Of a DNA stretch of 33,761 nt, positions 2,936 through 24,344 are shown in pieces. The notes below the pieces were generated by a model, which saw only the letters and a program-made list of their open reading frames with translations, was not told the DNA's origin and searched no databases. Made by a program: the position numbers and the translations under genes. The DNA is from an uncultured Selenomonadales bacterium (GTDB lineage: Bacteria > Bacillota > Negativicutes > Acidaminococcales > Acidaminococcaceae): NCBI GenBank assembly GCA_900315805.1, contig ONAN01000019.1, positions 1-33,761 on the forward strand, in the 5' to 3' direction. Numbering within the stretch: the stretch's first letter is position 1; every line of letters starts with the position of its first letter.

Positions 2936-4207
2936 GTGACAAAACACATGGCGAGAGTCATCATCACGTTATTGGATTCCTTCGGCATCGGCTATGCCCA
3001 CGATGCGGAGGCTTTCGGCGACAAAGGCGCCGACACGCTGGGGCATATTGCGGACTGGATGGCGGCGAACCGCAAACAGGCGGACGGCAAGCCGCAGTAC
3101 CTGGCCCTGCCGCATCTGGCGGCCCTGGGCCTGGAAAAGGCCCATGAACTGAGCACGGGGAAGGCCCTGGTGCATCCCCTGTCCGGCGAACCGGTCCAGG
3201 CGGACCCGCTGGACGGCGGCCGCGTCAAGGCCGCCTACACGTGCGCTGAGGAAATCAGCAAAGGCAAGGACACCCTGAGCGGCCACTGGGAAATCGCCGG
3301 CGTGCCCGTGCGGTTCAACTGGGGGTATTTTCCCGACAAGCCGAAATGCTTCCCCCAGGAACTGATGGACGCCCTCGTGAAGGAAGGAAACCTGCCCGGC
3401 GTGCTCGGGGAAAAACACGCCAGCGGCACCGTGATCATCCAGGAACTGGGCGAGGAACACATGAAGACGGGCAAGCCCATCGTCTATACATCGGCGGACA
3501 GCGTCCTGCAGATCGCCTGCCACGAAGAAACCTTCGGCCTGGAGCGGCTCTACGACTTGTGCCGCCTGGCCTATAAGCTGGTGCAGCCCTACAAGATCGC
3601 CCGCGTCATCGCCCGTCCCTTCGTAGGAACGAAGGCCGGGAACTTCGAACGCGTGGCGGCCCACCGGCACGATTTCGCCGTGCCGGCCCACGAACCGACC
3701 CTGCTGGATAACATGGTGAAGGCCGGCGGCCAGGTCTATGCCATCGGCAAAATCGCCGACATCTTCGCCCACCGGGGCATTTCGAAACATTACCCCGCAG
3801 CGGGCCTGGACCATATCTTCGACGCCACGGTGCAGGCTGTCAAGGACGCACCGGACAACACGCTGGTCTTCAGCAATTTCGTCGATTTCGATTCCAGTTT
3901 CGGTCATCGCCGCGACTCCCTGGGCTACGGCGAGGGACTGGAAATGTATGACCGCCGCCTGCCGGAGCTGCTGGCCCTGCTGCAGCCCGACGATGTGCTG
4001 CTGGTGACGGCGGACCACGGCTGCGATCCGACCTGGAAGGGCACGGACCACACGCGCGAAAAGATTCCCGTCCTGTTCTATGGCGGGAACGTCAAAGCCC
4101 AGCGGCTGGAACCGTTCCATACGTTCTCCGACATCGGCCAGACCCTGGCCTCCTACCTGAAGCTGGATCCGTTGGGGAACGGAAAGGCCGTGGATATCTG
4201 GAGGTGA
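2936..4207 (+). CDS. deoB: Phosphopentomutase
   Basis: The product (423 residues from the GTG start) interconverts ribose- or deoxyribose-1-phosphate and the 5-phosphate, a manganese-dependent cytosolic step of nucleoside catabolism. Family signatures are LLDSFGIG near the N-terminus, [63 protein letters not shown] and [18 protein letters not shown], matching the longer enterobacterial type of DeoB. GTG 2936 stands six bases after GGAG (2926-2929); ATG 2948 is an alternative four codons in. A TACAAT box at 2892-2897 may give it its own promoter, and read-through from udp is also possible. Its last codons contain the ribosome binding site of the next gene. Confidence 0.95.
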
Positions 4208-4212
4208 TTTCC

Positions 4213-4818
4213 ATGAAACAGTTTTCCCTGACGAAAATCCTGTGCCTGATGGCCGTCCTGTTCGGCCTCCTCGGCGTCCTGCCGGCCGGCCTGGCGGACG
4301 GGACTCTTGGGACTGCGAAGGCCTATGCCTTCGAACAGAAACCGGCCGAGTTCGTCATCCTCGACCAGTCGGGCCGCGTGACCCGGAGCGACGTGGCCGG
4401 CTTCACGACCATGGTGAAGATGGACTACAACCGCCCCCGCTACAACCTGCAGATCAACAGCGAAAAGGGCATGACGGCCGTGGAAAACATGTTCCGGAAA
4501 ATCGCCCAGCCCGACAAGGAAATGGTGGCCGCAGCCGCCAAGGAAGCCGGCACGCCTGTCCTGGTCGTGCTCGTTGTGAAGCGCATGGAAACGTGGCGCA
4601 TCAATTACGCTCCCCTGTGGTGGGATGATGACACTGCCGTCCACACCTATGCCTATGCCGACATTTATGCCTACAACGCTGACGGCGACAAATACATCGC
4701 CCGCCATATCCGCAAAAACGAGATCCGGGAAGAAGGCATGGAGGAAGACCCCTACGAAACCATCAAGTACGGTCTGGGCAACGCCCTGAACCGCATGGAA
4801 GGCAAACCGCAGATCTGA
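4213..4818 (+). CDS. Secreted protein of unknown function
   Basis: The 201-residue product starts with a clear signal peptide: basic MKQFSLTK, a hydrophobic stretch at about residues 9-28, and a probable Ala-X-Ala cleavage site (AYA) near residue 39. The mature part is mixed alpha/beta in character with a repetitive tyrosine/alanine stretch (HTYAYADIYAYNADG) and an acidic end; no catalytic motif is recognised. ATG 4213 is preferred because GGAGGTGA (4200-4207, overlapping the deoB stop) is ideally spaced for it. Tight coupling to deoB and a 22-base gap to the HAD phosphatase suggest one operon, but the link to nucleoside metabolism is only positional. The call is limited to an exported hypothetical protein. 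Confidence 0.75.
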   Translation: MKQFSLTKILCLMAVLFGLLGVLPAGLADGTLGTAKAYAFEQKPAEFVILDQSGRVTRSDVAGFTTMVKMDYNRPRYNLQINSEKGMTAVENMFRKIAQPDKEMVAAAAKEAGTPVLVVLVVKRMETWRINYAPLWWDDDTAVHTYAYADIYAYNADGDKYIARHIRKNEIREEGMEEDPYETIKYGLGNALNRMEGKPQI

Positions 4819-17512: not shown

Positions 17513-17824
17513 ATGGAAAAGACAGCAACCTTGAACCTTCGCATTTCTCCCCAGGTCAAATCAGAAGCAGAAAAAGTTTTGGATCAGTTAGGCATTCCCA
17601 TGTCGGTAGCTGTATCCGTGTATTTGAAACAGATAGCATTGACACGCGGTATTCCGTTTCCCCTGCAGCTGCCAGATCCTCCGGCATCCATTTCTCTCGA
17701 TGCGATGACGCCGGCCCAGATTCAATATGCCGTGGCGGAAGGGTTGGAAGAATATAAGGCAGGGAAGACCGTGCCGGCAGAAGATGCGTTTCGGCAGTTC
17801 AATGCGAAAAAAGCGAAGAAATGA
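17513..17824 (+). CDS. RelB/DinJ-family antitoxin, no partner toxin seen
   Basis: The 103-residue protein has the ribbon-helix-helix N-terminus of the RelB/DinJ family: ATLNLRISPQVKSEAEKVLDQLG followed by MSVAVSVYLKQIALTRGIPFPL. This part dimerises and binds operator DNA; the C-terminal half normally wraps the RelE/YafQ toxin. AGGAGG at 17499-17504 sets ATG 17513. Downstream there is no RelE/YafQ frame, only a membrane protein, and no toxin is found upstream. The coding sequence is visibly poorer in G+C than its neighbours, suggesting acquisition by transfer with later toxin loss. It may still repress itself or other promoters. Confidence 0.85.
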   Translation: MEKTATLNLRISPQVKSEAEKVLDQLGIPMSVAVSVYLKQIALTRGIPFPLQLPDPPASISLDAMTPAQIQYAVAEGLEEYKAGKTVPAEDAFRQFNAKKAKK

Positions 17825-19226: not shown

Positions 19227-19255
19227 ATTTCCGTTAACTTATAGGGAATTTATGG

Positions 19256-19284
19256 TTGACTCTGGAGCAGTCAAGCCGTATAAT
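19256..19284 (+). promoter_or_regulatory. Biotin operon promoter
   Basis: TTGACT (19256-19261) and a perfect TATAAT (19279-19284) are 17 bases apart, the best promoter upstream of bioD. Transcription should start around 19291, inside the BirA box. Confidence 0.85.
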
Positions 19285-19288
19285 CTAA

Positions 19289-19319
19289 TTGTTAACTGAA
19301 TAAATTTTGCGGTTAACCT
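19289..19319 (+). promoter_or_regulatory. BirA operator of the bio operon
   Basis: TTGTTAAC (19289-19296) and GGTTAACC (19311-19318) give the arrangement GTTAAC-N15-GTTAAC, identical in spacing to the Bacillus subtilis biotin operator. It overlaps the expected transcription start, so biotinyl-AMP-loaded BirA should repress bioDAWF. A further GTTAAC at 19233-19238 faces GTTGAC at 19255-19260 at N16, possibly a weak second site over the -35. Confidence 0.85.
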
Positions 19320-19379: not shown

Positions 19380-20111
19380 GTGACTGCTTTTGGTATTACC
19401 GCAACAGATACGGAAATGGGCAAGACGGTCGTGACGGGCGCGCTGGCGGCGGCCCTGCGCTACCGGGGCATCGTGCCGGGCATCTACAAACCCGTCGCGT
19501 CGGGCTGCATCCGCAAGGAGGGGGGCACCCTGATTTCGACGGACGCGGAATTCCAGATGAAATGCGCTGGTTATCCGGAAGAACAGCGCCTCGACGTCAT
19601 TCCCGTCGTGCTGGAACCGGCCCTGGCGCCGGCGGAAGCGAGCAAACTCGTGGGCGTGCACCTGGACCCGGACAACATGCTCCGGCTGGCCAGAAAATGC
19701 ATCGCCAGCCACAAGGTGACGGTGCTGGAAGGCATCGGCGGCATCACGGCGCCCATTACGGACGACTTTCTGGTCAAGGACTATTTCAAGGCCCTGGGCG
19801 TGCCCGTGGTCATCGTCGTCAAACCGATCCTGGGCAACGTCAACCATGCGGTGCTGACCGCGTTCTACTGCCAGCAGATGGGCATTCCCGTGCTGGGCTT
19901 TCTGGTCAACGGCTGGGACGAAGCCAAGGCCGGCGACCTGGAAAAGAGCAACCTGTACTATTACGAAAAACTGACGGGCCTGCCGATCCTGGGCAAACTG
20001 CCGCAGATGACGGAAGCGCAGCTCGACAATCCGGAAGAAATCGCCAAGCTGGTCGAACAGAATGTGCAGCTGGACCGGATTCTGGAACTGGCGGACAAAG
20101 CCGCAAAATAA
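19380..20111 (+). CDS. bioD: Dethiobiotin synthetase
   Basis: The 243-residue enzyme closes the ureido ring of dethiobiotin from 7,8-diaminopelargonate, CO2 and ATP. The P-loop is TDTEMGKT (residues 9-16), followed by the KPVASG substrate loop, the EGIGGITAPI Walker B/Gly-rich segment and the NHAVLTAFYCQQMGIPVLGFLVNGW C-terminal core typical of BioD. The start is GTG 19380, 7 bases after AAAGAAGG (19365-19372). It is the first gene of the operon, which is unusual as many operons begin with bioW or bioB. An A-rich spacer with a small GCCGCT/AGCGGC hairpin (20133-20147) separates it from bioA. Confidence 0.93.
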   Translation: MTAFGITATDTEMGKTVVTGALAAALRYRGIVPGIYKPVASGCIRKEGGTLISTDAEFQMKCAGYPEEQRLDVIPVVLEPALAPAEASKLVGVHLDPDNMLRLARKCIASHKVTVLEGIGGITAPITDDFLVKDYFKALGVPVVIVVKPILGNVNHAVLTAFYCQQMGIPVLGFLVNGWDEAKAGDLEKSNLYYYEKLTGLPILGKLPQMTEAQLDNPEEIAKLVEQNVQLDRILELADKAAK

Positions 20112-20178
20112 AAAAATAAAAAAGATGTAGAAGCCGCTGCAAGCGGCAAGGAAAAGAAAAACGAGGAGGACGTTACCG

Positions 20179-21570
20179 ATGAATAAATGGGAAGAATTGG
20201 ACAAAAAATATATCTGGCATCCGTTCACGCAGATGAAGGGCTGGGTGGAAAACCCGCAGCTCGTCATCGACCACGGCCAGGGCGTCAAGCTGTACGACAC
20301 GGACGGCAAGGAATACCTGGATGCCATTTCCAGCCTGTGGGTCAATATCCACGGCCATAACCGCAAGGAAATCAACGATGCCATCATCGAACAGCTCGGC
20401 AAAATCGAACACAGCACCCTGCTGGGCCTGATCAACGAACCGTCGGCGGAACTGGCCGAAAAGCTGGTCCAGGTGACCCCCGAAGGCATCAACAAGGTGT
20501 TCTACGTCGACGACGGTGCCACGGCCGTTGAAGCGGCCCTGAAGATCGCCTTCCAGTACTGGCAGTACAAAGGCAAACCGGAAAAACAGACCTTCATCAA
20601 CCTGGGTGACTCCTACCATGGCGACACCATCGGCGCCGTTTCCGTCGGCAACGTCGAAGTCTTCCACAAGGCCTACAGCCCGCTGCTGTTCAAGACACAC
20701 CGCTTCAGCTGCCCGTCCTACTACCACACCACGCTGCCCGTGAAGAACGAAAAGGAATTCGTGGACGCCCTGCTGAAGGAACTGGAAGATTACCTGAAGG
20801 AACACGCGGACACCACGGCCGCCATGATCATCGAACCGCTGTGCCAGTGCGCCGCCGGCATGCTCATGCAGCCGAAAGGCTATATCCGCGGCATCCGCGA
20901 CTTGACGAAGAAATACAATGTCCTCCTCATCGTCGACGAAGTCGCCGTCGGCTTCGGCCGTACGGGCCTCATGTGGGCCTGCGACCACGAAGGCGTGAAA
21001 CCGGACATGATGTGCCTGTCCAAGGGCATCAGCGCCGGCTACCTGCCTCTGGGCGCCACTATGGTGACCGATGAAATCTACAACGCCTTCCTGGGCGAAC
21101 CGACGGAATACAAGACCTTCTACCACGGCCATTCCTACACCGGCAACAACCTGTGCTGCGCTGCCGGCCTGGCAAGCCTGGACATCTTCAAGAAAGACCA
21201 TGTCATCGAGAACCTGCCGCCGAAGATGGAAGTCATCCGCCAGCATTTTGCAAAGATGAACGCCATGGAATTCGTCGGCGACGCCCGCCAGTGCGGCATG
21301 CTCGGCGGTATCGAACTCATGGCCGACAAGGCGAAGAAGGTTCCCTTCGACGCGGCGCTCCAGATGGGCGGCGGCATCTGCCAGAACGCCCGCAAATACG
21401 GCCTCATCATCCGCAACATCGGCGATGTCATCGTCTTCATGCCGCCCCTGTGCTCCACGGTGGACGAGATTGACGCCATGCTGAGCCGTCTGGAACAGTC
21501 CATGGACGAAATCTTCGCGGAAGTGCGGAGCAAGGACATCAAAGTCTTCTCCGACCCCTGCACGTTCTGA
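20179..21570 (+). CDS. bioA: Adenosylmethionine-8-amino-7-oxononanoate aminotransferase
   Basis: The 463-residue PLP enzyme converts 8-amino-7-oxononanoate to 7,8-diaminononanoate. BioA hallmarks are IWHPFTQMK (14-20 region), DAISSLWVNIHGH, GDSYHGDTIGAVSVG, IEPLCQCAAGM, DEVAVGFGRTG (253-263) and the PLP lysine in LSKGISAGYLPLGA, Lys282. The cofactor loop reads DDGATAVE (111-118), where most BioA proteins have a Ser in place of the Ala; whether this matters is unknown. The start is supported by AGGAGG at 20164-20169. A hairpin with a GCAA tetraloop and a T-rich tail follows before bioW. Confidence 0.95.
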   Translation: MNKWEELDKKYIWHPFTQMKGWVENPQLVIDHGQGVKLYDTDGKEYLDAISSLWVNIHGHNRKEINDAIIEQLGKIEHSTLLGLINEPSAELAEKLVQVTPEGINKVFYVDDGATAVEAALKIAFQYWQYKGKPEKQTFINLGDSYHGDTIGAVSVGNVEVFHKAYSPLLFKTHRFSCPSYYHTTLPVKNEKEFVDALLKELEDYLKEHADTTAAMIIEPLCQCAAGMLMQPKGYIRGIRDLTKKYNVLLIVDEVAVGFGRTGLMWACDHEGVKPDMMCLSKGISAGYLPLGATMVTDEIYNAFLGEPTEYKTFYHGHSYTGNNLCCAAGLASLDIFKKDHVIENLPPKMEVIRQHFAKMNAMEFVGDARQCGMLGGIELMADKAKKVPFDAALQMGGGICQNARKYGLIIRNIGDVIVFMPPLCSTVDEIDAMLSRLEQSMDEIFAEVRSKDIKVFSDPCTF

Positions 21571-21583
21571 GTAAACCGGAAGA

Positions 21584-21614
21584 CGCCGGTACGCAAGTGC
21601 CGGCGCCTTTGTTT
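21584..21614 (+). terminator. Terminator-like hairpin between bioA and bioW
   Basis: Bases 21584-21592 pair with 21597-21605 (9 bp, one G-U) around a GCAA tetraloop, followed by CCTTTGTTT. It may terminate part of the transcripts or stabilise a processed bioDA message. Confidence 0.65.
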
Positions 21615-21638
21615 GTATCTGGCAAAGGAGTGGTGATT

Positions 21639-22478
21639 TTGCTGAAAAGCAGCATGCAGTGTACGATGGTACAGGAACAAAGGCCGGAAAAGGCATCCCT
21701 CATCAGCATCAAGATGCGCGCGGCCCAGGGCGGGCCTCATGAACGGGGCGGCCGCCATATTTCGGGCGAAGAGCGCATCGTCCGGGAAGGGGATATCGAG
21801 TCCTGCCTGCACGAAATGCTGGAGCGCGCGACGACGCACCAGCGCGGCAAGGCCGATTTCATGAACCTGAAACTGCAGCTCGTCGACATGGACCGCGTCG
21901 TGTACAAGCCCATGCTCGACTTTTCCGAATGTGTGTCCCATACGGCGGAAGAAGGCCGGGAAGTGGCGGTCCGCGAACTGGTCGCGGCCGGCGTGACGGA
22001 AAAGGCGGCCCGCTCCGGCGTGGCGGCCATCCTGGCCCTGCCGGACAGCATGCGCGGCGCCATGCTCATGGACGCCGTGACGGGTGAACGGGTGGACCAT
22101 CTGGGCAGCCGCGGCGTCCGGGTCAGCAACATGGACGTGGCCGATCCGGAAGAATTCCGCCAGGCCCTGGCCGCCAAGGGACTGAAGGGCGACCATGTGC
22201 GCGAGGCCCTGGTCCTCGCCTCGAAGGTCGCCAGCGGGGAAGGCGTCGTGGCCGAGCTGTGCTGGTCCGACGACCCCTTGTACGTGACGGGTTACGTGGG
22301 CTCTACAAAGAACGGGTACCGCCGCATCCCCGTGCTCAAGCAGATGAACTGCGGCATCGGCGGCCGCGTCTTTTTCGTGAAACCGGGAACGGATCTGGAC
22401 GCGCTGCGGAACTACTACGAGGAACAGGTCGTCTTCATCACGGCAGGAGTAAAAGGCTATGTTACAGAAAAGGATTGA
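21639..22478 (+). CDS. bioW: 6-carboxyhexanoate--CoA ligase (pimeloyl-CoA synthetase)
   Basis: The 279-residue protein is BioW, which activates free pimelate with ATP and CoA to give pimeloyl-CoA for BioF. Signatures are SIKMRAAQGGPHERGGRHIS (residues 23-42), EERIV, the central RGAMLMDAVTGERVDHLGSRGVRVS and the C-terminal GCIGGRVFF-like NCGIGGRVFFV. AAGGAG at 21625-21630 is 8 bases before TTG 21639; GTG 21633 is too close and ATG 21654 too far, so a TTG start is inferred. The 3' end overlaps bioF by 20 bases, so translation is coupled. Its presence means the cell needs a pimelate source, made or imported. Confidence 0.92.
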   Translation: MLKSSMQCTMVQEQRPEKASLISIKMRAAQGGPHERGGRHISGEERIVREGDIESCLHEMLERATTHQRGKADFMNLKLQLVDMDRVVYKPMLDFSECVSHTAEEGREVAVRELVAAGVTEKAARSGVAAILALPDSMRGAMLMDAVTGERVDHLGSRGVRVSNMDVADPEEFRQALAAKGLKGDHVREALVLASKVASGEGVVAELCWSDDPLYVTGYVGSTKNGYRRIPVLKQMNCGIGGRVFFVKPGTDLDALRNYYEEQVVFITAGVKGYVTEKD

Positions 22479-23637
22479 ACGGGAACTGGCCGATGTGCGT
22501 GCCAAAGGCCTCACACGGCGCATCACGGACCTGCAGTACGAAGACGCCGTGACGGCGAGGGATGCCGCGGGAAAGCGGTTCCTTGTCTTTTCGAGCAACA
22601 ACTACCTGGGCCTGACCTTTGACGAACGCGTGCGCCGCGCCGCGTCCGAAGCGGCCCTGCGCTGCGGTTCCGGCTCCACGGGGGCCCGCCTCACGACGGG
22701 CGGCGTGACGGAAGCGTCGGCCCTGGAACGGGACCTGGCGCGTTTCAAGCACGGCGAAGCGGCCCTGCTCTTCAACACGGGCTACATGACGAACCTGGGC
22801 GTCCTGTACGGCCTGGCCCGGCCCGGCGACGTCATTTTCAGCGACGAACTGAACCATGCCAGCATCATCGACGGCTGCCGCATCAGCAAGGCCAAAGTCG
22901 TCGTCTACAAACACAAGGACGCGGCGGATCTGGAAGCGAAACTGCAGTCCGTGCAGGCGGCCCCCGGCGGCGTGCGCTTTATCGTCACGGACGGCGTCTT
23001 CAGCATGGACGGCGACATTTGCGATCTGCCGGCGCTGGTACATCTTAAGGAGCAGTACGGCTGCCTTTTGATGGTCGACGATGCCCACGCCGTGGGCGTC
23101 ATCGGCGCGGACGGGGCCGGCACGGCGTCCTATTACCACCTGCCCGGCACCATCGACCTGCAGGTCGGCACGCTGAGCAAAAGCCTCGCTTCCGTCGGCG
23201 GCTATGTCGTCGCCCGGGCGTCCATCATCGAATACCTGAAAAACAAGTCGCGGCCCTTCATCTTCAGCACCTTCCTCAGCCCGGCCGATGTAGCGGCCGC
23301 CCATGCGGCACTGCAGATCCTGGAACAGGAAGCGCCGCGGCTGATGGCGCGCCTGGCCCGCAACACGCAGATTGTGCGTCAGGGTCTGCAGGATGCCGGC
23401 ATTCCCGTCATTCCCGGAGACACGCCCATCGTTCCCGTCCTTGTAGGCGAAGCGGAACGGGCGACGGCCATCGATTTCAAGCTGCGCGAGGCGGGCATCC
23501 TGCTGTCCGCCATCCGGCCGCCGACGGTCGCGCCCGGCGCCAGCCGCCTGCGCTTCACCGTGACGGCAGGCCATGCGGAGGAGCAGCTGCGCCGCGCCGT
23601 GGCGAAATTGATTGAAGTTTGGAACGAAACCCGTTGA
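22459..23637 (+). CDS. bioF: 8-amino-7-oxononanoate synthase
   Basis: The 392-residue PLP enzyme condenses pimeloyl-CoA (from BioW) with alanine to 8-amino-7-oxononanoate. Recognisable segments are FSSNNYLGLT, GSGSTGARLTTG, HGEAALLFNTGYMTN, SDELNHASIIDGCR, TDGVFSMDGD, VDDAHAVGVIG (207-216) and the PLP-binding TLSKSLASVGGYV with Lys241. ATG 22459 lies within the end of bioW, 9 bases after GGAG. It is the last gene of the operon; bioB is absent from the window. A bidirectional terminator follows. Confidence 0.95.
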   Translation: MLQKRIERELADVRAKGLTRRITDLQYEDAVTARDAAGKRFLVFSSNNYLGLTFDERVRRAASEAALRCGSGSTGARLTTGGVTEASALERDLARFKHGEAALLFNTGYMTNLGVLYGLARPGDVIFSDELNHASIIDGCRISKAKVVVYKHKDAADLEAKLQSVQAAPGGVRFIVTDGVFSMDGDICDLPALVHLKEQYGCLLMVDDAHAVGVIGADGAGTASYYHLPGTIDLQVGTLSKSLASVGGYVVARASIIEYLKNKSRPFIFSTFLSPADVAAAHAALQILEQEAPRLMARLARNTQIVRQGLQDAGIPVIPGDTPIVPVLVGEAERATAIDFKLREAGILLSAIRPPTVAPGASRLRFTVTAGHAEEQLRRAVAKLIEVWNETR

Positions 23638-23717: not shown

Positions 23718-24242
23718 TTACCGCGTGTTGTCATGCTGCAGGTGCCGCACGGAGGCCTTTTCCCGTTCGAGGATCACCTTGTGGGCCATGCCCAGGACCT
23801 TGCCGCAGAACCCGGCGGTGAGCAGGGTGAAGACCATGCCCGGCACGGCGGCGGCCACGAGGCCCCACGCCGCTTTTCCGACGACGGCGCTCAGGGCGAT
23901 GCGGGCGAAAAAGGTGCCGATGGGACCGGCGAAGAGGTAAAAGAACCGGTTTGGCCCGGAAAAGAAGAAGACCACGGCCACGGCGACGCGGAAGAGCATT
24001 GAAATGCCGACGTTGAGGATGTTCTGCGTGCCCAGGAGCAGGCCCACGGCGCTGGAAACGAGGCCCGCCAGGATATAGGTCTTGATGCCGAAGACGCCGC
24101 AGATGGCGACGGCAACGGGCGCGGAAATCTGGAATTCCATGCCGGGCAGGAGGCTCGGCAGCTTGAACATGGCGCTGACTGTAATGAGGACGGCCAGCAG
24201 GCCGATTTGGCATAACTCTTTGGCAGTGGATTTCGATTGCAT
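23718..24242 (-). CDS. ECF-transporter S-component-like membrane protein, BirA-regulated
   Basis: The 174-residue protein is almost entirely hydrophobic, with five to six membrane segments and short loops, the size and layout of ECF transporter substrate-binding (S) subunits. The first helix (CQIGLLAVLITVSAMF) carries small-residue spacing of the kind that contacts EcfT. It does not look like BioY: the typical BioY Gly/Pro motifs are absent. Its promoter has a clear BirA box, so expression should follow biotin demand. Inference: uptake of biotin or a precursor, with pimelate attractive because BioW needs it. AAAGGA precedes the ATG by about 10 bases. It may instead be an unrelated small permease. 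Confidence 0.68.
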   Translation of the reverse strand: MQSKSTAKELCQIGLLAVLITVSAMFKLPSLLPGMEFQISAPVAVAICGVFGIKTYILAGLVSSAVGLLLGTQNILNVGISMLFRVAVAVVFFFSGPNRFFYLFAGPIGTFFARIALSAVVGKAAWGLVAAAVPGMVFTLLTAGFCGKVLGMAHKVILEREKASVRHLQHDNTR

Positions 24243-24291
24243 CGGTCACGGTTCCTTTCTGTAAGGGGATGGGGATACTCAGTATGACTTC

Positions 24292-24320
24292 ATTATACGG
24301 GTTCATTCCATTTACGTCAA
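24292..24320 (-). promoter_or_regulatory. Promoter of the ECF-like gene
   Basis: On the minus strand TTGACG (24320-24315) and a perfect TATAAT (24297-24292) are 17 bases apart. The -35 forms part of the BirA operator. Confidence 0.8.
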
Positions 24321-24344
24321 CCTAAAATATAAAATGGTTAACAA
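24313..24344 (-). promoter_or_regulatory. BirA operator of the ECF-like gene
   Basis: Read on the minus strand, TTGTTAACC is followed by GTTGAC in the arrangement GTTAAC-N15-GTTGAC, the same spacing as the bio operon box. It covers the -35 element, a position suited to repression. Confidence 0.82.

Follow-up and report, generated by a model that had tools for sequence, protein, structure and literature searches.

BioX, a small membrane protein that accompanies BioW under predicted BirA control, is a probable ECF S component and candidate pimelate importer

Introduction

From where does a bacterium that makes biotin through the pimelate-consuming enzyme BioW obtain its free pimelate, and could a small membrane protein encoded beside the biotin genes be part of the answer? 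The question is raised by the window analyzed here, a stretch of 33,761 nucleotides from an uncultured Selenomonadales bacterium (contig ONAN01000019.1; genome of 2.0 Mb, 98% complete), which carries a bioDAWF operon and, next to it, a gene for a hydrophobic protein preceded by a BirA-type box. How BioW is supplied with free pimelate has been described as unknown (PMC11089781). Free pimelate has been measured in the feces of gnotobiotic mice, and cultures of Bacteroides caccae that were given pimelate accumulated more biotin (PMC4552000). A large reconstruction of gut genomes counts those encoding BioF-A-B-D-W as biotin prototrophs and recognizes BioY and YigM as the only biotin transporters (PMC6593275). 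In the open-access literature we found no pimelate transporter named; subscription papers fall outside this scope and may hold an earlier proposal. Pimelate uptake in B. sphaericus was reportedly the subject of a study in 1992.

Results

The locus, its promoter and its BirA box

The features of the window on which the analysis turns are the following:

19233..19317, + strand, BirA box array before bioD, two sites (N16 and N15)
19380..20111, + strand, bioD (TIGR00347 above cut-off)
20179..21570, + strand, bioA (TIGR00508 above cut-off)
21597..22478, + strand, bioW, pimeloyl-CoA synthetase (PF03744 and TIGR01204 above cut-off)
22459..23637, + strand, bioF (TIGR00858 with 424.6 bits, just under the cut-off of 426.45; PF00155)
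23718..24242, - strand, open reading frame of the bioX-like gene, predicted ECF S component for pimelate
24292..24320, - strand, sigma-70-like promoter TTGACG-N17-TATAAT, a consensus match only, read from the sequence
24316..24342, - strand, BirA box of the bioX-like gene, GTTAAC-N15-GTTGAC, sharing bases with its -35 (sequence match; conserved in homologues)

The bioX-like gene encodes a membrane protein of 174 amino acids, of which 33 homologues were aligned, and is convergent with the bioDAWF operon (+ strand, 19380-23637), in which the true start of bioW probably lies downstream of 21597. Upstream of the bioX-like gene, GTTAACCATTTTATATTTTAGGTTGAC at 24342-24316 matches GTTRAC-N15-GTTRAC with no mismatches. 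The first-pass annotation had placed the -35 of the gene inside a BirA box and had given the facing operon a box of the same spacing, and both statements are borne out: the -35 TTGACG (24320-24315) lies inside the right half of the exact site, 17 bp from a perfect -10 TATAAT (24297-24292), and the proximal site before bioD reads GTTAAC-N15-GTTAAC (19291-19317). The distal site before bioD is GTTAAC-N16-GTTGAC (19233-19260). At least two adjacent BirA-type sites (19233-19317) thus precede bioD, and one precedes the bioX-like gene. Elsewhere in the window, a RelB/DinJ-like antitoxin was recognized by eye on the + strand (17513-17824), with no obvious toxin gene adjoining it.

Identity of the protein as BioX

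The window protein has no family match in Pfam or NCBIfam. A tblastn search found proteins with 40% identity to it on three staphylococcal plasmids, directly after bioW; on those of Mammaliicoccus sciuri and S. equorum the order is bioD-A-B-F-W-S, where S is the bioX-like gene, and a BirA box is found at the bio genes of one staphylococcal plasmid. The profile of the window family matches the staphylococcal proteins with 134-141 bits (E 5e-45 to 6e-43), and all of the family-invariant residues (K27, P29, G34, S40, A41, P42, G52, Y56, G60, S64, G71, F84, R85, R114, P134, G135, and T139) are present in them. The biotin operon of S. aureus is bioDABFWX, and its BioX, it has been suggested, may act as an acyl carrier protein (PMC12642757). 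Sequence comparison makes the window protein orthologous to the staphylococcal protein encoded at the bioX position, and the name BioX is therefore not new, the link to S. aureus BioX resting on operon position in the plasmids of related species. Of the novelty claimed for the protein in the first-pass annotation, the role in supply of a biotin precursor is supported, but a gene name already exists. On the S. xylosus plasmid NZ_CP066722.1 (L191, 5099-7477), which is conjugative, IS257 lies beside a truncated bioF, and bioW and bioX remain; in the public annotation of this plasmid, BioX goes under the name "QueT transporter family protein."

Relationship to ECF S components

The staphylococcal orthologues match the QueT family (PF06177) over their full length with an E value of about 5e-6, at 27 bits against a gathering cut-off of 33.7, and no match to PF06177 was obtained from the Negativicutes members or from ten homologues outside the class. 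In profile-profile comparisons, the BioX family scored 35.3 with BioY (first helix only), 29.2 with ThiW-like proteins (162 columns, full length), and 19.6 with RibU, whereas 14 unrelated membrane families used as controls scored at most 19.4, so that the margin of RibU over the controls is small (19.6 versus 19.4); a fifteenth control family, formed automatically, turned out to be BioY (29.5). For the ThiW-like proteins, family scans returned a single weak match (TIGR02359, E 0.028), a profile search of the PDB gave a chance match only, and an AlphaFold model built from two sequences only, the window protein and one relative, reached a pLDDT of 44 and was unusable. The protein had been described beforehand as resembling an S component without being recognizably BioY. 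The second half of this description agrees with the lack of any PF02632 match at E<=1 and with the two clear BioY genes found elsewhere in the genome, and the first half gains support from the sub-threshold QueT match of the staphylococcal orthologues and from the profile-profile ranking. The BioX family is probably an ECF S component family, the members of which would dock on EcfT.

A putative BirA regulon

The window genome contains six exact GTTRAC-N15-GTTRAC sites, five of them upstream of the bioX-like gene, bioD, bioB, one bioY, and ecfA, and the sixth on contig C11. In front of the other bioY stands an N16 box with 0 mismatches in one orientation, and the ecfA site is the BirA box of the ecfA-ecfA'-ecfT module, on contig C6; the EcfT family is present in 30 of the 30 genomes tested. 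The candidate for BirA is the single PF03099 protein of the genome (ORF 704-1702 of L189), the N terminus of which, as read from the sequence, is helix-turn-helix-like. Because boxes precede them all, the biotin genes, the biotin importers, the shared ECF module, and the bioX-like gene appear to form one regulon. Comparison of the box across relatives had been set beforehand as a refuting test, and the box proved widespread: with at most 1 mismatch and within 250 bp upstream, it precedes 23 of 39 bioX homologues against 22 of 413 genes in a control set that itself includes some other bio genes (Fisher p = 3e-16). Some of the boxless homologues apparently lie inside an operon behind bioB. Predicted control of the bioX-like gene by BirA, which would bind at these putative boxes, is well supported.

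Co-occurrence with BioW

In our main sample of 120 related genomes, the bioX-like protein is present in 55 and BioW in 59, and the two coincide closely, the protein being found in 55 of the 59 genomes with BioW and in none of the 61 without it (Fisher p = 7e-30, kinship ignored). In 41 of the 55, the gene is followed immediately by bioW or a bioW-bioF fusion, usually within 90 bp, and in five it lies within 3 kb of bioW; among these five is the window genome, where bioF separates bioW from the convergent bioX-like gene. In the other nine, it lies far from bioW or on another contig, and BioW is still encoded in all nine. Operon linkage accounts for part of this co-occurrence, but the association exceeds it because the six distant genes examined among these nine (L038-L041, L045, and L046) all retain a box of their own. 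The coordinates of search matches served to establish adjacency, ORF lists built greedily by length being unreliable at some loci of high GC content, where shadow ORFs displace real genes (G009, window genome). BioY, on the other hand, occurs in 112 of the 120 genomes and in 53 of the 55 with bioX and shows no association (p = 0.29).

The same pattern extends to a phylum sample of 348 genomes, in which all 13 full-length bioX homologues belong to BioW genomes; outside the class, the homologue lies directly before bioW in 10 of 10 cases examined. A weak match in one genome of this sample without BioW (G171, E 1.6e-4) was taken for another S component. A bioX remnant with a stop codon, apparently decaying in place, was seen between bioF and bioW in G284 (L131, about 4180-4340). 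The contig search gave one close relative, uncultured Selenomonadales RUG237, and no match among the viral contigs searched.

BioW genomes without BioX

BioC was counted only above its cut-off, lower-scoring profile matches being taken as generic methyltransferases, and by this count the window genome has none. Among the 59 BioW genomes, BioX is present in 48 of the 49 without BioC versus 7 of the 10 with it (Fisher p = 0.013). Four relatives have BioW but lack BioX, three of which (G075, G077, and G109) encode BioC above cut-off, in G075 inside the bio cluster; for the fourth (G040), no alternative pimelate source was identified. BioW genomes of the phylum sample that lack BioX include two in which a P450 gene occupies the place of bioI (G309 and G424), one with a broken bioC-like frame before bioB-bioW (G234), and two with fab genes within the bio operon (G121 and G453). 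BioW genomes without BioX thus often have another pimelate source; absence of BioX is left unexplained in G176, G215, G238, G350, and G428.

Several of these loci have features of their own. The operon of G121 carries fabG- and fabF-like genes after bioW-bioA-bioF-bioD (L115, 1884-4236), which suggests dedicated pimelate synthesis of the fatty acid type. The bio operon of G453 (L125, 3045-11228) has fabZ-, fabG-, and fabF-like genes, and a TrpX-like binding protein, a permease, and an ATPase are encoded directly before bioW. Directly before bioB-bioW in G123 and G169 (L116, 7764-12442, and L117), where BioX is absent, stands a BMP-family ABC transporter composed of a binding protein (PF02608), a double ATPase, and two permeases; it may import pimelate without being related to BioX, or its position there may be due to chance. 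A methyltransferase that is by score no true BioC precedes bioB-bioF-bioW in G215, again with BioX absent (L119, 11270-11962).

Discussion

Our analyses make it reasonably probable that the window protein is BioX, a group II ECF S component with free pimelate as its most likely substrate, co-regulated by BirA with the shared EcfAA'T module. It is the constant company of pimelate-consuming BioW that makes BioX most likely the S component of a pimelate importer, and strict co-occurrence together with adjacency narrows the substrate to pimelate. When biotin is scarce, BirA would leave its boxes, and BioX, the bioDAWF products, BioB, both BioY proteins, and EcfA-EcfA'-EcfT would be made together. 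BioX would then bind pimelate outside the cell, dock on the shared EcfA-EcfA'-EcfT, and import its ligand, which BioW would convert to pimeloyl-CoA for BioF, BioA, BioD, and BioB. The invariant basic residues K27, R85, and R114 could be suited to a dicarboxylate.

The first-pass annotation had left the choice of substrate between pimelate, 8-amino-7-oxononanoate (KAPA), and biotin; pimelate is now favored by BioW co-occurrence and adjacency. That BioX instead duplicates BioY as a second type of importer, for biotin or for one of the later intermediates KAPA, DAPA, and dethiobiotin, seems improbable to us. Such a protein would also be expected under BirA control and among the relatives of ECF S components, and BioY is indeed one of the best profile-profile matches, in the first helix only; however, an importer of a later precursor should be useful exactly where BioW or BioF is absent, and BioX is found in none of the 61 genomes without BioW. 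Biotin and KAPA fit poorly as substrates because BioX never occurs without BioW among the 120 relatives and has no link to BioY (112 of 120 genomes, p = 0.29). The idea of BioX as a substitute for BioY was rejected on the same lack of association. It is likewise unlikely that BioX is no transporter and works in the membrane alongside BioW or a pimelate-making route, for example by channeling pimelate from fatty acid synthesis, although tight linkage to bioW would be expected of such a partner, published work treats the origin of free pimelate in BioW organisms as unknown (PMC11089781), and S. aureus, which has BioX, is reported to be prototrophic (PMC12642757). Against a partner role speak the distant but full-length similarity to QueT, the BirA control common to BioX and ecfAA'T, and the absence of BioX from several BioW genomes with BioC or a bio-operon P450. 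The role of acyl carrier protein in pimeloyl-CoA synthesis, proposed for S. aureus BioX (PMC12642757), is barely credible: it fits poorly because the family members are all hydrophobic membrane proteins, and none matches an acyl-carrier family.

Import of pimelate nevertheless has evidence against it. S. aureus (bioDABFWX) grows in streptavidin-treated medium with no pimelate added, the 1% casamino acids of which may bring traces of it (PMC12642757), and deletion of bioI in B. subtilis yields a bradytroph only (PMC6505512). Other sources of pimelate therefore exist, which counts against a strict need for import, as does the presence of BioC in seven genomes with BioX against the pimelate import reading itself.

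From an ecological point of view, we suggest only tentatively, at somewhat less than even chances, that BioX serves as a dedicated importer of pimelate with high affinity, that many anaerobic Bacillota in which the BioW pathway is complete are conditional auxotrophs, and that pimelate is a vitamin precursor shared within gut and rumen communities. Conditional auxotrophy, if true, would mean that biotin is made only when free pimelate is provided by neighbors or by the diet. Should BioX be a pimelate importer, many listed biotin makers may depend on an outside supply of it, and the S. aureus gene for a "possible acyl carrier protein" would gain a testable role.

Among known systems, staphylococcal BioX is close to the window protein in its 40% identity, in the operon position of the orthologues, and in the invariant residues, but it follows bioW, whereas the gene precedes bioW in Negativicutes, and an acyl carrier function has been suggested for it (PMC12642757). 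The bioXWF order of Bacillus sphaericus (PMC11089781), compared by order alone, matches that of bioX, bioW, and bioF in relatives of the window. QueT (PF06177), the S component for a queuosine precursor, is matched over the full length by the staphylococcal orthologues below threshold; the BioX family differs from it in biotin regulation and linkage to bioW. BioY, the biotin S component, has the BirA box in common with BioX and a weak profile likeness confined to the first helix, but BioX does not match PF02632 and co-occurs with BioW, which BioY does not. The ThiW-like S components (within the PF12822 matches) align with the BioX profile over the full length (29.2), whereas their motifs and genomic context differ from those of BioX.
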